From: an uncultured Ardenticatenia bacterium
Lineage (GTDB): Bacteria > Chloroflexota > Anaerolineae > 4572-78 > NAK82
DNA: 64,000 nucleotides
NCBI GenBank assembly: GCA_937127125.1
Contig: CAKZLO010000003.1
Location: 1 to 64,000 of the forward strand
Direction of reading: 5' to 3'
Position 1 is the stretch's first letter. Each line of letters begins with the position of its first letter. Of the stretch, positions 6,341 to 55,982 are shown in pieces. The translations under genes were made by a program, and so were the position numbers. Under the pieces are notes generated by a model. That model made no database searches. It was not told the origin of the DNA and saw only the letters and a program-made list of their open reading frames with translations.

Positions 6341-7372
6341 CTAGTTTTCCATGTGATGGAGCTGGCGCAGGCTGGCTACATAATCGCTGATATCCTGCTC
6401 GGGGTAGGGCGAGGGTCCGAGCGGATCCGCAATAGTCGGGTCACCCAACAAAGCATAGAAAGTGTTCAACACGCCACAGGCTAGTACCTGGGTGTTATAA
6501 CCGCCTTCTAACACGAAGACGATGCGACCATCACATAGCTCTTCGGCCAGTGCCACCAGGGTACGCGTTAACCAGGCGTAGCCGGTCAGCGAGAGAGTCA
6601 GCCCGGCCAAGGGATCACTGTGGTGAGCATCATAGCCTGCTGAAACCAACATTAAATCAGGCTTGAAACGACATGTCGCCGGAATCAAGACCTGCTCGTA
6701 GAGCGTCTGAAAAGTGCGGTCGCCGGCACCTGCCGCCAACGGCATATTGATCACGTTGCCTCGTGTAATCCCACTACCAATCTCGTGCATGGCTCCGCTT
6801 CCCGGATAATGGGGAAATTGGTGAGTCGAAATGTAACAGATACCTGGATCGCTTGTGACCATCGACTGCGTACCATTGCCATGGTGTACATCGAAATCCA
6901 CAATCACGACACGCTCTATTCCATGTGCGTGACGTGCTGCCAAGGCGGCCAGAGCCACGTTGCCGAAGAGGCAGAAACCCATACCGTGATCAGGCAGTGC
7001 GTGATGTCCGGGCGGGCGCACTAAAGCAAACGCATTGTGGACTTGCCCTCTCAGAACTGCCATTGTTGCTTCGATGGTGCTACCGGCGGCCATTACAGCC
7101 ACATCAAATGAATCGCGGGTGACATAGGTGTCCGGATCGAGATAACCACCCCCTTGCTTGGCCATCTCTCGTACGGCATCTATGTACCTGGGCCGATGGG
7201 CAAGTTCCAGCTCCTCGCGTGTGGCTGGGCGAGCTGGAATACGCACCAGCCATTCCAACACTCCCGAAGTGAGCAGCTGCTGCATGATAGCCTCAAGACG
7301 GTGGTGATTCTCGGGATGGCCCAGCAACGTGTGTTTCAGGAAGATCTCATCGTAAATGTAACCTGTGCTCAT
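6341..7372 (-). CDS. Histone-deacetylase-family amidohydrolase (AcuC/HDAC-like)
   Basis: A 343-residue arginase/deacetylase-fold protein. The paired catalytic histidines are H123-H124 (RPPGHHA), the zinc ligands D161 and H163 ([10 protein letters not shown]) and D248 ([12 protein letters not shown]), and the transition-state Tyr lies in LEGGYN near residue 313. Bacterial members remove acetyl groups from lysine side chains of enzymes (AcuC acts on acetyl-CoA synthetase) or from acetylpolyamines. The DPL motif and the long HH-containing loops fit class II-like bacterial HDACs; the substrate is not determined. It starts at ATG 7372, only a few bases from the predicted transcription start of the promoter at 7382-7410. 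A thiolase lies downstream, so a link to acetyl-CoA status is possible but is inference. Confidence 0.88.
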
Positions 7373-7381
7373 AAATATCCA

Positions 7382-7410
7382 TCATAGGAAGAGATATCGA
7401 AAAGGGCAAG
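7382..7410 (-). promoter_or_regulatory. Strong putative promoter, HDAC-family gene
   Basis: Minus strand TTGCCC (7410-7405), a 17-base spacer, TATGAT (7387-7382). The -10 element ends only 10 bases before the ATG at 7372, so the mRNA would be nearly leaderless. A divergent promoter starts 24 bases away at 7434. Confidence 0.6.
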
Positions 7411-7433
7411 TTCTGACAGGTGTGAGCGCATGT

Positions 7434-7462
7434 TGACTCGGCCGTGTTCTATTGTTATGATT
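7434..7462 (+). promoter_or_regulatory. Strong putative promoter, large glycosyltransferase gene
   Basis: TTGACT at 7434-7439 and TATGAT at 7457-7462 with a 17-base spacer, 44 bases upstream of the GTG start at 7506. It is divergent from the promoter at 7382-7410. Confidence 0.65.
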
Positions 7463-7505: not shown

Positions 7506-10500
7506 GTGTCGTATAACCCCAGCTTTCTCCAAACGTCACCTGGGTCACGCACCTTTCAGCACAGGCTGCCTCAACGGCGCACACTGGCGCGCCTGGCTTG
7601 GGCTCTGATTGCTCTGGTTTTGGCTTGGTCGGCGCAGAGGCTGTTGCAGGACAACTGGTTGTGGGAAGGTCTCCTGCTTTATGTTGTCGCCACATTGCTC
7701 TTCGCCCGGCAGCTGCGAGAGACACCACTGGCTTGGCCCGCTACTACTATAACATCGCTCACGAATATCCAACCTACTGTGCTCGAGTCCGCCCAGCGCA
7801 GCACTTGTTCGAAGATGATACGTTACGCCGGCCTGGGTATGGCTGGATTAAGTCTGCCTTTGTCCCTTATTGCTCTGAGCCACTTCGGCCGTCTGGAGAA
7901 CCCAACAGGCTGGATGTACTACCTGGCCAGCCTGGGTATATTCATCTTTGGGGTAGGACTGGCGACTTGGGCTGGTCGAGGAGATTGGGCTGCACGAGAT
8001 GCACCATATAGCCAACGTGGATGGCCAAGGATAGATATAGTGCTCCTGGCTATCCTTGGGCTGGCACTTTTTTTTCGGACTTACCGCTTTCATTCACTAC
8101 CCTTTGGCGTCTGGTACGATGAAGCAGTAGCTGGCATTGAGGCACGCCTTATTTGGAGCGATGCAACCTTTCGTCCTGTCTTCTGGGAGTCAATGAATCA
8201 CCCTGCACATCACCTCTACCTATTTGCTCTATCGTTGGCTCTGTTTGGAGACACCATCTGGGGATTACGCGCGGTGAGTGTTGCCTTCGGCATAGGCACT
8301 GTCCTGACAGCTTATCTCTTTGGATGTGCCCTCCGGGGGCGCCGCTGGGGGTTGTTGCTCGCTTTCTTGGTCGCTACAATGCGCTGGGATGTCAACTTCA
8401 GCCGCGTGGCGATGAACAGCATTGATGTGCCTTTCTTTGCCTTCCTGACCCTCTTCTGCGGGGTGCACGCGTGGCGTGTCCGGCTGCGGTCACCCGGGTG
8501 GATGGCTGCCACCGGTCTCTCGCTGGGACTGGGATTGTGCTTTTACACAGGTTTCCGTTTGTTCACAATCGCGTTTCTGGTGTTTGGGGGGACGCTTCTG
8601 GTGGCGGAGATAGTGCGCCACGCTCGGAGAGTACCACGTCGTACTATGCCCCCAGACACCGGAGGCGCTGACACTGTCTCTTGTTGGACGATTGGCGAGG
8701 TGTGTCATCGTGTATGCCCTGGGGCATTGTTCCTGCTTGCAGTGTGGTTGACGACAGCCCCGATAGTACAATTCGCTGTTGCGCGTCCTGAGATTTTCTG
8801 GCAGCGTACGCGCACAGTTTCGATCTTTACCAACCGTGAGAATCCTGATCTGGTCGCTGCCCTCGTCAATAATGTCCGCAAGCACGCGTTGATGTTCAAC
8901 TATCGCGGCGACCCCAATGGACGACACAACCTGCCTGGTGCCCCCACGCTTGACCGTCTGTCCGCAGTGCTTTTCGTTTTGGGTTTGGGTCTGGCAGTAG
9001 CGCGTCGTGACCAAGCAAGTCGTTTCTTTCTGCTATTGTTCCCATTTGGTCTGGCAGGTGGAGTCTTCTCTCTTGATTTTGAGGCACCCCAGTCGCTGCG
9101 ATCGATTGCCTCCCTCCCGGCTGTTGTCTATTTTATCGCTCTCAGCCTCGATACCCTATGGAGCGAGCTGCGCTGGAGTGCTGCTATTGTCCGTCCACGC
9201 CTCAGCCTGGCAGCCGTTGTACTGGGATTAGGATTTATCGCGTTTGAGAATGGTCATATGTATTTTGTGCGCCAGGCGAGCGACTTGGCTGTATGGCAAT
9301 CCTTCTCCACTACCGAGACGTTGATCGGCATGAAAGTCGCTGCTCTGGGCACGCGACCGATCTACTATTTCTCGCCACTTCTGTACGACCATCCTACGAT
9401 CCGTTTCCTGGCACCGGTGAAACCTTCCACCGATGGGTTCCCGAGTGAGCGCAAGATTATGGAGCTGCCTGATCCCTTGCCAGCTCGTGAAGCTGGTGAT
9501 CGGCCTGTAGTCTACTTCTTGCATCCGGATGAAACATGGGTGGCAATGTTAGCGCGCAATCTCTACACCAACGCTCGTGTTGTAGAACTGCCAGGTGAAC
9601 CGGGTTATCCCGTGGTGGCAACAATGATCGAGCTGCAGCCAGAGGATGTGCAAAGCGTACAAGGGTTGGAGATGCGTTACTGGAACGGCAATGACACCCG
9701 GCAGCCTCCCATAATGTTGGAACGTTGGCTCACTGTAGACAGCAAGTGGCCTGATAGTGCTCCCCTAGAGCTTCCTTTCAGTGGGGAGCTGAGCGGTGTC
9801 CTTTATGCACCTCAATATGGTCACTACCAGCTGGCAGTCTATGTGCCCGGACGCGCGAGCCTGATGCTGGATGACCAGCAATGGGCAGTTGACCGTGCTC
9901 TTTCGTTGGACCTTTTGCTGGCGCAGGGTAATCACAGCTTGCGCCTGTGGATAGAAGGCGGTCACGGACGTGTACATCTGGCGTGGAAGCCACCAAGCAG
10001 TACAGAGCTGCATACTATCCCTCAACACGCCCTCTACAGAACTCCTGTCAGCGCCCATGGCTTGTTGGGAAGATATTTCGCCAATCCTAACTTCACCGGG
10101 TCCCCCGTATTGGAGCGCATTGACCCACGGCTTGACGTTTATTTTCATCTGACGCCGTTGCCTCGTCCTTACAGCGTCGAATGGAGTGGCGCCATCGAGA
10201 TACCCTATGAGGGTATCTATACGTTTGGGGTACGTGCAGTCGATGCTGCCGAGCTGTATTTAGACGATGAACTGCTGTTGCGCACGCAGGCACCTGATCG
10301 TCTCAGCGAAGAATCGATTATGCTCCAACCAGGCTTGCACACGTTACGCCTCACCTTTCGTGACCTGACCGGGCGCTCGCGCATTCATCTGTACTGGACC
10401 CGACCGGGTGGAGAACGCGAGATTATCCCTTCATCCTATCTTTGGCCCAGTGTAGTCAGTAGGCGTATGGCACCGCCTCCGCCGTCGACCCCAGAAACAT

Positions 10501-11348
10501 CCGGCGTGTGGCTACCACTGGAGCTAAGTTGGCTGGCTTCTTGGGGTGGAATAGGTGATGGCGTAGGTCAGTTCAACGAACCGCGCGATGTAGCTGTTAT
10601 CAGAGATATGGTTTACATCGCCGATACTGGCAATCGACGCATTCAGGTCTTCGACCGGGAGGGCAACTTCCGCACCCTATGGACTGGGGGTGAAGAGGAT
10701 TTTGTGGAACCTCTTGCCTTAGGGGTGACCAGCCAGGAAGAGTTGCTGGTGCTTGATTCATTACCCGGTTGGATCTACCGCTTCACGCCGGCGGGGACAT
10801 CGCTTGGTCGCATAGCGGGTCCGGGCGCAGCGTTTTTCCATCCACGCGGCATGACAGTACTACCGGGCGACATTATCGCTGTAGCCGACACTGGCGGGGC
10901 ACGCCTAGTCTTTCTCAATATAGCTGGAATTCCAGTAGGCCAAATAGGACGTTATGGCACCGCGCCGGGCGAATTCCATGAACCGACCGATGTGGCGCGC
11001 GATGAGCAGGATACCTATTACGTGCTGGAAGCGTATAACCAGCGGATGCAACGCGTGGACCGCTGGGGTGGCAGCTTGGCTATGTGGCCAATTCCCCCCA
11101 GTATCGCCTACGACGGTCCTCATTTGGCGTGGGCACCTGACGGCAGCTTGCTAGTGACGGCACCTGAAGAAGGGGCTATCTTACGCTATACACCTGACGG
11201 CCGGCTGCTGGGACGTTGGAAGCAGGCCGGCGAAGCAACTATGCAACGTCCAGTGGGCATCTATGTAGACGATCGCCAAATCTTGTATGTCACCGATACA
11301 CTCACCCACCAGGTGCACCTCTTTGCGCTGCGCCAAGAATCTCACTGA
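7506..11348 (+). CDS. GT39-type membrane glycosyltransferase fused to PA14-like and NHL repeats
   Basis: A 1280-residue protein. Residues about 1-620 are a polytopic membrane domain of the protein mannosyltransferase/ArnT type (GT39/GT83 superfamily), with the acidic pair in the first external loop at Y204-D205-E206. After about 620 the chain is soluble and probably outside the cell. Two PA14-like beta modules follow (about 728-835 and 850-980, the second starting GLLGRYF and ending with the HLYW-TRPGG pattern). Then comes a six-bladed NHL-type propeller (about 1012-1275; e.g. GVGQFNEPRDVAV, YIADTGNRRIQVFD). The transferase part should move a sugar from a lipid carrier to an acceptor; PA14 modules often bind glycans. 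The GTG start is preceded by GGTGAGAG. It ends 62 bases from convergent lon. Confidence 0.85.
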   Translation: MSYNPSFLQTSPGSRTFQHRLPQRRTLARLAWALIALVLAWSAQRLLQDNWLWEGLLLYVVATLLFARQLRETPLAWPATTITSLTNIQPTVLESAQRSTCSKMIRYAGLGMAGLSLPLSLIALSHFGRLENPTGWMYYLASLGIFIFGVGLATWAGRGDWAARDAPYSQRGWPRIDIVLLAILGLALFFRTYRFHSLPFGVWYDEAVAGIEARLIWSDATFRPVFWESMNHPAHHLYLFALSLALFGDTIWGLRAVSVAFGIGTVLTAYLFGCALRGRRWGLLLAFLVATMRWDVNFSRVAMNSIDVPFFAFLTLFCGVHAWRVRLRSPGWMAATGLSLGLGLCFYTGFRLFTIAFLVFGGTLLVAEIVRHARRVPRRTMPPDTGGADTVSCWTIGEVCHRVCPGALFLLAVWLTTAPIVQFAVARPEIFWQRTRTVSIFTNRENPDLVAALVNNVRKHALMFNYRGDPNGRHNLPGAPTLDRLSAVLFVLGLGLAVARRDQASRFFLLLFPFGLAGGVFSLDFEAPQSLRSIASLPAVVYFIALSLDTLWSELRWSAAIVRPRLSLAAVVLGLGFIAFENGHMYFVRQASDLAVWQSFSTTETLIGMKVAALGTRPIYYFSPLLYDHPTIRFLAPVKPSTDGFPSERKIMELPDPLPAREAGDRPVVYFLHPDETWVAMLARNLYTNARVVELPGEPGYPVVATMIELQPEDVQSVQGLEMRYWNGNDTRQPPIMLERWLTVDSKWPDSAPLELPFSGELSGVLYAPQYGHYQLAVYVPGRASLMLDDQQWAVDRALSLDLLLAQGNHSLRLWIEGGHGRVHLAWKPPSSTELHTIPQHALYRTPVSAHGLLGRYFANPNFTGSPVLERIDPRLDVYFHLTPLPRPYSVEWSGAIEIPYEGIYTFGVRAVDAAELYLDDELLLRTQAPDRLSEESIMLQPGLHTLRLTFRDLTGRSRIHLYWTRPGGEREIIPSSYLWPSVVSRRMAPPPPSTPETSGVWLPLELSWLASWGGIGDGVGQFNEPRDVAVIRDMVYIADTGNRRIQVFDREGNFRTLWTGGEEDFVEPLALGVTSQEELLVLDSLPGWIYRFTPAGTSLGRIAGPGAAFFHPRGMTVLPGDIIAVADTGGARLVFLNIAGIPVGQIGRYGTAPGEFHEPTDVARDEQDTYYVLEAYNQRMQRVDRWGGSLAMWPIPPSIAYDGPHLAWAPDGSLLVTAPEEGAILRYTPDGRLLGRWKQAGEATMQRPVGIYVDDRQILYVTDTLTHQVHLFALRQESH

Positions 11349-51768: not shown

Positions 51769-53736
51769 TCACGGTATAACGGACACCTCAGACAGCACCG
51801 CCTGTAACGTTCCATCCGCTAGCGGCACCTGGTTGCCTGCAGAATCACGCAGCCCGAGCACCAGCATATAATCGCCGGGAGGCGTCACTGGATTAAGATT
51901 CACGTCAAAATCAGCGCGCACTACCTGATCAGCTTGCCAATGCACTACAGGATACAGATGAAACACGTCCTGGCTTCTCTCTAACGATGCACCCCAAATT
52001 TGCCCCATATTGTCCACCATATGCACAAACGGGGCATAATCTTGTGTACAAATCCCCTCTCGTTGCCAGTACGTGACCACGTGAATCCATCCGCTGGGTG
52101 GGTGGAACAGGTCATCCGTGGCACGCACTCGCACATCTTGCGCAAGGTACCCCACGAGACGGATGCAACCCTGAAATGTTACCAGTTTATGACCGGCAAA
52201 GGAAGGAATGTCGTCCATCAGGTACCCAGACACATACGCGCGTACAGCCAAACCGGGAGGATAGATCTCAGTTGCCAAAGGGTAACGAGCTGCCAGCCAG
52301 GCATTAACCCGACGTTGCGGATCGGCGAGTTCCACGTGTGACTCCACCAACCACACTACCGGATGGCGGCTACTGATTGACAAGAGTGGCGCATCCAGAT
52401 TGCTGTCCGCCTCGACAGAGCTGAACACTGCATATGTCTGCCCGCCTCCTCGAAGGTAATACTGTAACGGGTAGCGCACCCAGTCCGGATGAATGAGAAT
52501 GGCTTCTTCTGGACGGCTATGTGTCGCCAGATAAGCGGCAGTCTCTCGCCAACCTTCCTTACGCGCCTGCGGGCTCCACTGTCCAGGCAATGCAACAAGG
52601 GACAAGACCAACGGAAGTGCCACACAACACCCTTGGATCAGATCGCGTTGTACCGCAGGCAACGATCGTGCTAGGCGGCCTAGCTGTGTCGCACCTAAGG
52701 CAACGGCTACCAACAGCCACGGTACGATCACAATGAAATAGCGTTCGCCAAAGAAAGCCAGACGATTGCGCAACAGCAACAGTGACGCAAGCGCTAGAGG
52801 CATTAGCAGGAGTAGGGCGATAAGGGGACGTGTTGCAGGAAGTGCAGTAACAAGCGATCGTCGTGCTTCGGGTAAGAGGGACTCTATGGGACTCAAAGCG
52901 ACGAGAGCAAGCATCCCCATCATCCCCGCTATAGTGGCCGACAAAAGAGGTGTGAGTGGCGCTTTCCACACCGTGAAGGAGACCAACAGCGTCCAAAGCC
53001 GCTCCACCAATCCATCCAAAGGGTTGCCCGGACCTGCTTCTCCGCTGACGCGCAATGCAGCTAACATCAGTGGACTAGCGAGGAGGGTGGCAACGGCCAA
53101 GCTACCGAAAAAGTACAACCACACCCGACGAGATCGTGGTCGAATCCACAACAGGTACAAGCAATGAGCTGGCAAGAGCAACGCGGTATACAGGTGTGTG
53201 TACAGCCCAACAAGCACACATGCAGCATATGCCATCCACTGTAGGAAGATTGTGCGTCCTGCCTGAGAAGCGCGCACTGCCGAGACAAAGCCCCAGGTAG
53301 CACACGTCGCGATGAGGGCGGCCAAGGCGTACATACGTGCCTCCTGGCTGTACCACACCAGAAAGGGGTTCAGGGCAGCCAGGGCACCGGACAACAGGGC
53401 TATATGACTGCCTAGCAGAACCTGCACCAGACGATATATCACGGAGACTAGCAACACACCCAGCAGCACCGAAGGGAAACGAAATGCCACTTCGCTGTCC
53501 CCAAACACAAGACGCCACCCGTGTAATAGAAGATAATATAGGGGCGGCAGACGATCCTCCACCAGGTTCATGCTGACCTGAATAATGCGGCTTATCCCTG
53601 AACGCGCCCAGTGGACGCTCATTGCTTCATCAAACCAGAAGCTGTGATATGTCAGGTTCTGGAACCTTACTGCGAATGCTACACCAACTAGGGCGACCGG
53701 CAGCCAGGTGTATGTCCTGGCGAGCGCTCTGCTCAC
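51769..53736 (-). CDS. GT39-type (ArnT/PMT-like) glycosyltransferase
   Basis: A 655-residue protein: a polytopic N-terminal domain with the first-loop motif FWFDEAMSVHWA near residue 33-44 (Asp-Glu catalytic pair), the VWYSQEARMY motif near 128, and an extracytoplasmic C-terminal part of about 220 residues ending in a beta domain. It should use a lipid-linked sugar donor outside the membrane. The GTG start overlaps the TGA of the upstream gene (GTGA), so the two are coupled. Confidence 0.85.
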   Translation of the reverse strand: MSRALARTYTWLPVALVGVAFAVRFQNLTYHSFWFDEAMSVHWARSGISRIIQVSMNLVEDRLPPLYYLLLHGWRLVFGDSEVAFRFPSVLLGVLLVSVIYRLVQVLLGSHIALLSGALAALNPFLVWYSQEARMYALAALIATCATWGFVSAVRASQAGRTIFLQWMAYAACVLVGLYTHLYTALLLPAHCLYLLWIRPRSRRVWLYFFGSLAVATLLASPLMLAALRVSGEAGPGNPLDGLVERLWTLLVSFTVWKAPLTPLLSATIAGMMGMLALVALSPIESLLPEARRSLVTALPATRPLIALLLLMPLALASLLLLRNRLAFFGERYFIVIVPWLLVAVALGATQLGRLARSLPAVQRDLIQGCCVALPLVLSLVALPGQWSPQARKEGWRETAAYLATHSRPEEAILIHPDWVRYPLQYYLRGGGQTYAVFSSVEADSNLDAPLLSISSRHPVVWLVESHVELADPQRRVNAWLAARYPLATEIYPPGLAVRAYVSGYLMDDIPSFAGHKLVTFQGCIRLVGYLAQDVRVRATDDLFHPPSGWIHVVTYWQREGICTQDYAPFVHMVDNMGQIWGASLERSQDVFHLYPVVHWQADQVVRADFDVNLNPVTPPGDYMLVLGLRDSAGNQVPLADGTLQAVLSEVSVIP

Positions 53737-55982
53737 TCAGTACACTCCCCCTTAAGATGAATCGGGATAAGCACTTGCTCGGCGGGTTGCAACTCTCCGG
53801 ACGGCTCAAGCACTACCGGCCCCAGGCGAGGCATTTCAGGAAGGTCGGGATGATAGAGCCCGACTTCCAGCCAATAGCTCCCGGATGGCATCTCGGATGG
53901 CAATCTCAGTGACACGTGATCAGGGAACATGCTCCCAACAGGCCACTCTTGGGTAGGCCGTGCCGGAAGATGATCGCCATTCGCTAGGGTCCTCCCACCA
54001 CTATCCTTCAGGTGTACGAACACTGCATAATCCTCTTTCACCCGGGCTACCGCTTGCCAAACGAGCACGAGCTCCATGTGCCTGTGCTGCTGCGGATGTG
54101 CCTTCGCAACATCGCGTGCTATGCCACACCACTCCGGTATAAAGCGCAAACCCAACAAACGAATTTGTTCGCCTAGCAATGCTCGCACTGGATGCGTGAT
54201 GAAGTACTCTAGGTCGAAACGCATTCGCGAAGGCAGACGATAGTGGAGTAGCTCCATATGCCAAAACTGGCCGTAATCATCCTGAATCCCCACCGCACCT
54301 AACAGCAAAGGCAATACGTTGAATGGATCGGTGGTCTCGTTCTGCCAACGCACCAACCACACACCACTTTTGTGTGTCAGAATGTCTTCCAATTGATCTT
54401 CCACCGATAAGTCCAAGACGGCCCGCACATCCAAGGTCTCGATAGGAGGCAGGGGATGCCAACCTTCCCAACCGTAGTAATACGCCCAAGCAGGTGCCAT
54501 ATGGCCAGAGCTAAGCAGCACTGCCTCACTCGGCAGGATACGCTCACGGACAACTTGGGCAGTTATGCGAAAGTCTGCCTTGTTGAATTGATTATCCTTG
54601 TAGGGCAGATACCAATTGCGCAATGAATAGACCGAGGTAGATAGCACAAACCCGAGCGCCAGAAAGCCGGTGAAGTGTGGGAGCAATCTCATTAATACCC
54701 CAAGGCCAACTGTCCTTCTCCAGTTAATCAGCACTGCCAGCCCTCCCGCTAGTATTAGCACAAAGGCTGGCCAAGCAAGAATGGCATAACGAGGGTTAAA
54801 CTTGGGTACCCGCCATGCAAGGAAAAGGACAAGTGCTGCTGGCACGATGAGACAGATAAGAAGAAAAAATGGCACTACACGGCAGCAAAATCTACTGGCC
54901 GCATTGGTTGGCCTTCGCTCAGATGAAACGTCCCCTCGTGTAATCGAATTGTCATTTCTGCGATGATGATCTACAGTGACCGGGTACATTATTGGCCGCC
55001 TACCGCCCCATAATGTCAGTGCCAATACCGAGCTGGCAAAGATAACACCGAAACCCAGTCCCAGTTGTGTAGCAGTAAATTCTTTTACTGTCTCGCCGAA
55101 GCTAAAGGTGAGAAACAGGCGACGTGCCATTTCCCAGAAGCTGAGCGTTCCAGGCCAGTAGCTGGCATCCTGACCATAACGTCCCAACACGAAGGGCAGC
55201 CAGGGTGCATAAAAAAAAGGAACCAGAGTTGCCGCCACGGCCAGAGACCCCAAGCGGGAGTGTATCCAGAGCAATTGGGCTGTTTCCACATTGCCAATCG
55301 TACCCTTCGAAAGGGTCGAAGAGGTTGCGAAACACCCTCCTATTATGACCCCTGCCGCAGACACTACGTGGGCTGCAAAAAGAAAAACGGCAAAGTAGTG
55401 TGTATAGAGAGCAGCCGCCATCGTGATAGCATATCCTACCACGATCGGCCAGTTACAGGCCTGAGATGGAGAAGAGTCAGACTGGTGCCCAATGCCTAAC
55501 AGGTGCAGCCACAGATAAGTGCTTGTCAATCCCAGAAGGATGAGCAACGTGTACATACGTGCTTCCTGGGCATAGTAGACGTGAAGTGGGGAAAGAAGTC
55601 CCAGCAGCAACACTATCCACGCTCCAGGACTGCCAAACAGACGCCGACCCACCCGCCATAACATAGGGAGAGTGAGCGCAGCGAACAACACGGAGGGGAA
55701 ACGCAGTGCGTATTCTGAGGTGCCAGCTATGCGAACCCAAAACCAGAGCAGATAGTAATACAAAGGAGGCTGAATGTCATTAGCTGTCCATGTGGTCAGC
55801 TGCGGAAGTGACATTTGCGTGAGATACCAGCTCACACCTTCGTCATACCACAGGCTTTGTGCAGCCAGGAGATGAACACGCAGGGCAAAGCCGACCAGTA
55901 CCATAAGTAGAAAGATCGAAGCGGAAATTACTTTGTTGTCTCGCAAGGGAGAAACAGTCGGCCAACTATAAGACGTTTTCAT
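53733..55982 (-). CDS. GT39-type (ArnT/PMT-like) glycosyltransferase, first of pair
   Basis: A 749-residue protein built like its downstream neighbour: the motif LWYDEGVSWYLTQM near residue 43-56, DIQPPLYYYLLWFW near 69, HVYYAQEARMYTL near 138, about 10-11 helices, then a soluble C-terminal part. Similar motifs in the two genes point to duplication. The last four bases overlap the next start. The probable donor is a polyprenyl-phosphate sugar and the acceptor is unknown. Confidence 0.85.
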   Translation of the reverse strand: MKTSYSWPTVSPLRDNKVISASIFLLMVLVGFALRVHLLAAQSLWYDEGVSWYLTQMSLPQLTTWTANDIQPPLYYYLLWFWVRIAGTSEYALRFPSVLFAALTLPMLWRVGRRLFGSPGAWIVLLLGLLSPLHVYYAQEARMYTLLILLGLTSTYLWLHLLGIGHQSDSSPSQACNWPIVVGYAITMAAALYTHYFAVFLFAAHVVSAAGVIIGGCFATSSTLSKGTIGNVETAQLLWIHSRLGSLAVAATLVPFFYAPWLPFVLGRYGQDASYWPGTLSFWEMARRLFLTFSFGETVKEFTATQLGLGFGVIFASSVLALTLWGGRRPIMYPVTVDHHRRNDNSITRGDVSSERRPTNAASRFCCRVVPFFLLICLIVPAALVLFLAWRVPKFNPRYAILAWPAFVLILAGGLAVLINWRRTVGLGVLMRLLPHFTGFLALGFVLSTSVYSLRNWYLPYKDNQFNKADFRITAQVVRERILPSEAVLLSSGHMAPAWAYYYGWEGWHPLPPIETLDVRAVLDLSVEDQLEDILTHKSGVWLVRWQNETTDPFNVLPLLLGAVGIQDDYGQFWHMELLHYRLPSRMRFDLEYFITHPVRALLGEQIRLLGLRFIPEWCGIARDVAKAHPQQHRHMELVLVWQAVARVKEDYAVFVHLKDSGGRTLANGDHLPARPTQEWPVGSMFPDHVSLRLPSEMPSGSYWLEVGLYHPDLPEMPRLGPVVLEPSGELQPAEQVLIPIHLKGECTE

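Follow-up and report, generated by a model that had tools for sequence, protein, structure and literature searches.

Glycosyltransferases of the GT-C type use polyprenyl-phosphate or pyrophosphate donors, and catalysis takes place at their first outside loop. In ArnT and in the catalytic subunits of the oligosaccharyltransferases (STT3, PglB and AglB), a GT-C core is followed by an outside C-terminal domain; to our knowledge, neither PA14 nor NHL modules are known in any of these four proteins. In the PMTs (family GT39; Pmt1, Pmt2 and Pmt4), the catalytic DE motif is located in the loop between the first two helices and a MIR beta-trefoil is inserted in the loop that joins helix 7 to helix 8, the sugar sites of MIR influencing the processivity of Pmt1-Pmt2 (PMC7759382; this and the other articles are cited from excerpts of their text). 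EmbB/EmbC, AftD and GT136 likewise combine the GT-C core with extra outside modules, which are carbohydrate-binding modules (CBMs), one being carried by the enzyme that founded GT136 (PMC11127046). Here we describe a gene of an uncultured Ardenticatenia bacterium (phylum Chloroflexota), located at positions 7506–11348 (+ strand) of the window, i.e., the first 64,000 nucleotides of contig CAKZLO010000003.1 (assembly GCA_937127125.1). Its product combines a GT-C membrane domain with modules of a different kind, namely a PA14 dyad and an NHL propeller.

The open reading frame (ORF) starts with GTG and runs for 1280 codons with zero internal stops, and its extent is supported by Pfam matches and by full-length relatives. 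When the 1280-residue product was searched against Pfam, PMT_2 (PF13231) matched residues 231–364 (E 3.4e-9; 37.5 bits, above the cut-off of 26.1), PA14 (PF07691) matched residues 849–976 (E 3.5e-18; 66.3 bits, cut-off 24), and NHL matched in four stretches (E 2.1e-16). The gene thus encodes one genuine chain, in which a GT-C membrane domain is followed by a small alpha/beta domain, a tandem pair of PA14 modules and an NHL propeller of six blades. A first-pass annotation of this DNA had proposed such a fusion of glycosyltransferase, PA14 and NHL parts, and had named a profile search without a PA14 or NHL match as grounds for giving it up; the search was run and matched both, and the fusion was borne out by the single ORF. 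The two PA14-like modules that it had described were also recovered. The Pfam match corresponds to module 2 (residues 849–985; 10050–10460), and module 1 (residues ~735–848; 9708–10049) is unmatched by Pfam in this protein. The family profiles of the two modules matched each other by hhalign (probability 99.9, E 6e-31, 110 columns), and each forms a beta-sandwich in the predicted structure. Profiles of the alpha/beta region and of the propeller gave no match to the PA14 profile (39% over 17 columns and 0.6%, respectively).

The same annotation had called the membrane domain GT39-type. That label could not be assigned, as the broad PMT_2 model alone matches; PMT (PF02366), the model used as the GT39 criterion, gave no row for the protein at E <= 1. 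Among the aligned relatives, PF02366 matched 11 of 62 and PMT_2 61 of 62 at E <= 0.001, while NHL was found in 60/60 and PA14 in 59/60. These relatives (63) had been preselected because each matched all three parts, and rows that fell outside given length limits were dropped afterwards; the counts describe the chosen proteins, not the frequency of the fusion.

Structures were predicted by AlphaFold2 on two separate segments, with alignments of the protein and its relatives from fetched loci; the models do not give the placement of the membrane part relative to the ectodomain. The model of residues 2–725 (62 sequences) reached a pLDDT of 90.3 and a pTM of 0.91. It shows four extra predicted membrane helices, which make up an N-terminal extension (residues 1–172; 7506–8021, all features described here being on the + strand unless stated), followed by the GT-C core (residues 173–590; 8022–9275) with ~11 membrane helices. 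The core superposed on Pmt2 (6p25_B; Z 26.1, rmsd 3.6, 377 residues aligned), yeast STT3 (8agb_A; Z 26.5, rmsd 6.0, 436 aligned) and ArnT (5f15; Z 25.0, rmsd 5.1, 446 aligned), and most of the alignments with these three begin at around model residue 167–177. Foldseek also matched the membrane core to ArnT (E 1.6e-6). Over ArnT and the oligosaccharyltransferase subunits as a group the Z scores were 20–26, whereas the sequence similarity of the protein reaches AglB only (E 0.0056). For the Emb and AftD structures Z was only ~13–17.

The model of residues 595–1280 (60 sequences; pLDDT 91.3, pTM 0.67) contains the alpha/beta domain (residues ~591–734; 9276–9707), the two beta-sandwiches, and the propeller (residues ~1005–1280; 10518–11345). 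The propeller has six blades of four strands by our reading of the strand list, and it matched the NHL domains of TRIM3 and TRIM2 (Z 35.5, rmsd 2.0–2.1, 265 residues), in agreement with the six blades claimed earlier. The tandem PA14 region was matched by Foldseek to the dyad of RsgI3 (6qe7) over 292 columns (E 2e-19) with an rmsd of 16.3; at this rmsd, the pair of modules cannot be overlaid as one rigid body. RsgI3 of Clostridium thermocellum likewise has a tandem PA14 pair on the outer side of the membrane, and its dyad binds pectin-like polysaccharides (PMC4711584), but it is an anti-sigma factor and not an enzyme.

By helix count, 15 membrane segments were read from the model. The loops read as inside contain 15 Lys or Arg in 106 residues, and those read as outside 8 in 112 counted residues, long loops being scored at their ends only. 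The helix count and the loop charges would place the N-terminus inside and the whole region after the last helix outside, in support of the outside location proposed for the modules. Compared with the PMTs, the protein shares the superposable core, a DE pair in the first loop and a beta-rich accessory domain predicted outside, but differs in having four extra N-terminal helices and in carrying its PA14 dyad and propeller after the last helix.

Conservation was examined in the 63 full-length aligned members. R191, P199, G262, P419, G493 and P528 are invariant (63/63), and R532 is retained in 61/63. In the core, the first outside loop carries the pair Asp205-Glu206 (8118–8123); by analogy with the DE motif of the PMTs the pair is of catalytic type, and 58 of the 63 have it intact. 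An outside loop (residues 427–483; 8784–8954) contains a conserved segment, FNYrGDpNGRHNLPG, and in this loop M463, G468, D469, N475, P480 and L482 are each retained in 59 or 60 of the 63.

We scanned 298 genomes of the class, and all 298 gave some match, mostly partial. The full layout was scored when one alignment began no later than query residue 467 and reached at least residue 1230 in a frame of 1080 codons or more; by a hand count among the matches listed, at least 46 of the 298 carry it in one open frame. In the window's own family, six of seven genomes carry the gene, one of them split across two contigs; it was not seen in the seventh (G161, 82% complete). In a phylum draw of 301 genomes, 18 matched at E <= 1e-40, and 10, all from other classes, had the full layout, nine in one alignment and the tenth (G475) as two separate pieces within a single frame. 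The search for the same architecture in other genomes, proposed at the outset, thus gave a clear answer: a one-off fusion in a single genome is rejected, as relatives occur throughout the class and in other classes as well. A single-protein scan of genome contigs, which detects close relatives only and hardly probes spread beyond the phylum, found two near relatives plus an alphaproteobacterial match confined to the propeller. Eight of 72,556 plasmid records matched, all in the propeller region only, and none reached 80% query coverage.

Two loci among the relatives deviate in length or frame. In L065:495-4104, the two parts lie in different, overlapping frames, a PA14-NHL piece of 566 aa and a GT-C piece of 811 aa, and its close relative L059:2964-6629 is one frame of 1222 aa; the split in L065 is probably a break in the assembly or the gene. 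A relative of 1725 aa (L083:6429-11603) is extended by roughly 500 residues at its N-terminus.

A FastTree tree of the core was built from 95 sequences (63 with NHL, 13 without NHL, 12 Agl23 and 7 small TIGR03663-like proteins). The window protein falls in a clade of 51 (support 1.0), of which 48 have NHL and three do not. The remaining 25 (15 with NHL, 10 without) lie outside this clade, partly on weakly supported branches. The three clade members without NHL (L041_1459, L059_148 and L065_4639) stand at two places of the tree, so the propeller was lost or gained more than once; some of the proteins scored as lacking NHL may be truncated (L093_3_2630 has an open end at the border of its region, and L065_1672_4104 is apparently broken).

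Proteins of the DUF2298 and TIGR03663 families often lie next to each other. In other genera, the gene often adjoins a TIGR03663 protein (E 2.6e-87, 9.1e-92 and 3.9e-81 in three examples), and these neighbours of Agl23 type end in NHL repeats. The survey covered 39 regions (L056-L094), each from a different genome; many had been picked for tandem matches, so they are not a random sample. An Agl23-NHL protein is present in 15 of them (13 labelled, and two incomplete ones, L063 and L076, judged from blast scores) and is directly adjacent on the same strand in nine (L056, L057, L060, L061, L063, L068, L069, L092 and L093). In several regions, a small TIGR03663-like protein precedes it. DUF2298 was found in 7 of 40 regions, by Pfam in L068 and L070 and by blastp in L077, L079, L080, L093 and L095. 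Proteins of ~710 aa lying between the gene and Agl23-NHL (717 and 707 aa; L074:10612-12762 and L082:10709-12829) matched no Pfam family at E <= 1e-4. In the genome of the window (G000), an Agl23-NHL protein of 1120 aa is paired with a TIGR03663-like protein of 633 aa on contig C34 (L104:9896-15192). The gene is part of a group of membrane proteins found across Chloroflexota, comprising DUF2298, the small TIGR03663-like protein, Agl23-NHL, the GT-C/PA14/NHL protein and a paralogue, and this set probably builds surface glycans or glycoproteins. As a side observation, the whole genome gave 23 weak matches of TIGR03663 type, a large repertoire; two further GT-C-like genes in the window (frames of 655 and 772 aa, ~53146-55916, - strand) also match TIGR03663 weakly.

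We consider it fairly probable that the protein is an extracytoplasmic GT-C_A transferase of the PMT_2 superfamily that uses a polyprenyl-phosphate(-linked) donor and whose ectodomain holds or positions an acceptor or a partner. The PF13231 score, the superposable core and the acidic pair D205-E206 all agree with the GT-C_A fold and with the superfamily. The membrane core would take a sugar from the donor at the outer surface of the cytoplasmic membrane, and would pass it to the acceptor via Asp205-Glu206. The alpha/beta domain, the PA14 dyad and the propeller may meanwhile hold or position the acceptor or a partner protein, a role modelled on that proposed for MIR in the PMTs and for the CBMs in some other GT-C enzymes. 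Our best guess for what the ectodomain does is that it tethers the enzyme to the acceptor.

Several points weigh against this assignment. The DE pair is lost or altered in 5 of the 63 relatives, and the Agl23-NHL protein of the same genome has it too, so that DE alone cannot separate a transferase from a flippase-like relative. The gene lies on contig C3, far from the Agl23-NHL cluster on C34, and the same separation was seen in a congener (G051). It stands alone in the window, flanked by unrelated-looking genes that we take, from their translations, to be deacetylase-like, thiolase-like and Lon-like, and these are silent on glycosylation. We know of no activity measured for any member of the family. 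Finally, PA14 module 2 does not have the Asp-Asp calcium site expected of a lectin.

The last point concerns the ectodomain directly. In PA14 lectins, two consecutive Asp residues (DcisD) hold the sugar-binding calcium (PMC8092209). The corresponding position of module 2 is V912-D913, and Asp-Asp was found at the aligned column in 0 of 48 scored NHL-bearing members of the window's subfamily vs 11 of 15 outside it; six members have it one column later, and the scoring refers to alignment columns and not to a superposed calcium site. A typical calcium lectin is therefore rejected for these modules. They had been described as glycan-binding-like PA14: the PA14 identity stands, while sugar binding is weakened because the Asp-Asp site is missing, and "glycan-binding" is best held loosely.

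The acceptor of such a transferase may be a glycan and not a protein, the enzyme then serving wall, capsule or other polysaccharide synthesis. GT-C enzymes with accessory CBMs do build wall and O-antigen glycans (PMC11127046), but our data favour neither kind of acceptor, and we regard this sub-case as possible though clearly less likely than the general assignment. More speculative is a Chloroflexota-specific extracytoplasmic glycosylation machine, made up of a protein of Agl23 type with one or two GT-C transferases, each ending in an NHL propeller. Through these propellers, the subunits that supply the donor and those that carry out the transfer (or else a common acceptor) would be brought together in a single outside complex, and the split in the PA14 calcium site (kept in paralogues, lost in the window's subfamily) would mark a division of labour.

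The protein could instead be a flippase-like or flippase-associated GT-C relative and not a transferase. TIGR03663, named flippase activity-associated protein Agl23 in NCBIfam, is also a GT-C relative; in Chloroflexota it ends in the same kind of propeller and neighbours the gene in relatives, and in liposomes, reconstituted Haloarcula hispanica Agl23 translocated a lipid-linked oligosaccharide (PMC11182771). The match of the membrane part to TIGR03663 (C3:8043-8654) is weak, however, with 21.1 bits against a cut-off of 126.25, and membership in Agl23 is rejected on this score. Moreover, Agl23 forms a separate clade of 12 in the core tree (support 0.999), and the top fold matches of the window protein are transferases. 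We think a flippase-like role unlikely. The propellers of Agl23 group apart from those of this family (17/17, support 0.967, midpoint rooting), and the PA14 dyad is absent from three scanned Agl23-NHL proteins.

Still less probable is a surface sensor, in which the GT-C fold has turned into a membrane anchor for the PA14/NHL ectodomain. The dyad of RsgI3 is a polysaccharide-sensing module (PMC4711584), and 5 of the 63 relatives lack an intact DE pair. Against this, DE is intact in 46 of the 48 NHL-bearing subfamily members, the conserved core residues exceed what a mere anchor needs, and no cytoplasmic signalling domain was found in the AlphaFold2 model or by Pfam; the sensor role suggested earlier has no positive evidence. 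An assembly error or a frameshift joining two genes, which the first-pass annotation had named as a way for the fusion to fail, is rejected as next to impossible, since the same layout occurs in one frame in the class and phylum genomes counted above and no point was found in its favour.

A sigma-70-like promoter match (TTGACT-17-TATGAT, with TG preceding the -10) lies upstream of the gene at 7433–7461 (10/12 in a consensus scan). The first-pass annotation had called this a strong promoter supporting expression. It is a consensus match only, and the number of such sites in the region (4) is near that in shuffles (2.9 +/- 1.8), so the claim was not upheld and the promoter was dropped as evidence of expression. 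A weaker second match at 7381–7409 (- strand) faces a divergent upstream gene starting at 7372.

In the open-access literature, we found no paper on the GT-C/PA14/NHL architecture. The excerpted text of PMC8756737 holds one PMT2/PA14 entry, OJX39484.1 of Chloroflexi bacterium 44-23, tabulated with PMT_2 and PA14 beside a DUF2298 protein; it is an appendix table entry without function, and NHL is unmentioned there. A literature search on Chloroflexi S-layers and excerpts from PMC10202920 had nothing on this enzyme. GT-C transferases with accessory outside modules are already known, but the combination of a PA14 dyad with an NHL propeller across a phylum was not found described. The architecture is phylum-wide and essentially unstudied. 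It suggests that the accessory-domain solution represented by MIR in the PMTs has been reached here with different modules. Surface glycosylation in Chloroflexota is poorly understood, and a conserved putative transferase, together with Agl23-type and sometimes DUF2298 proteins, provides a concrete gene set for it.

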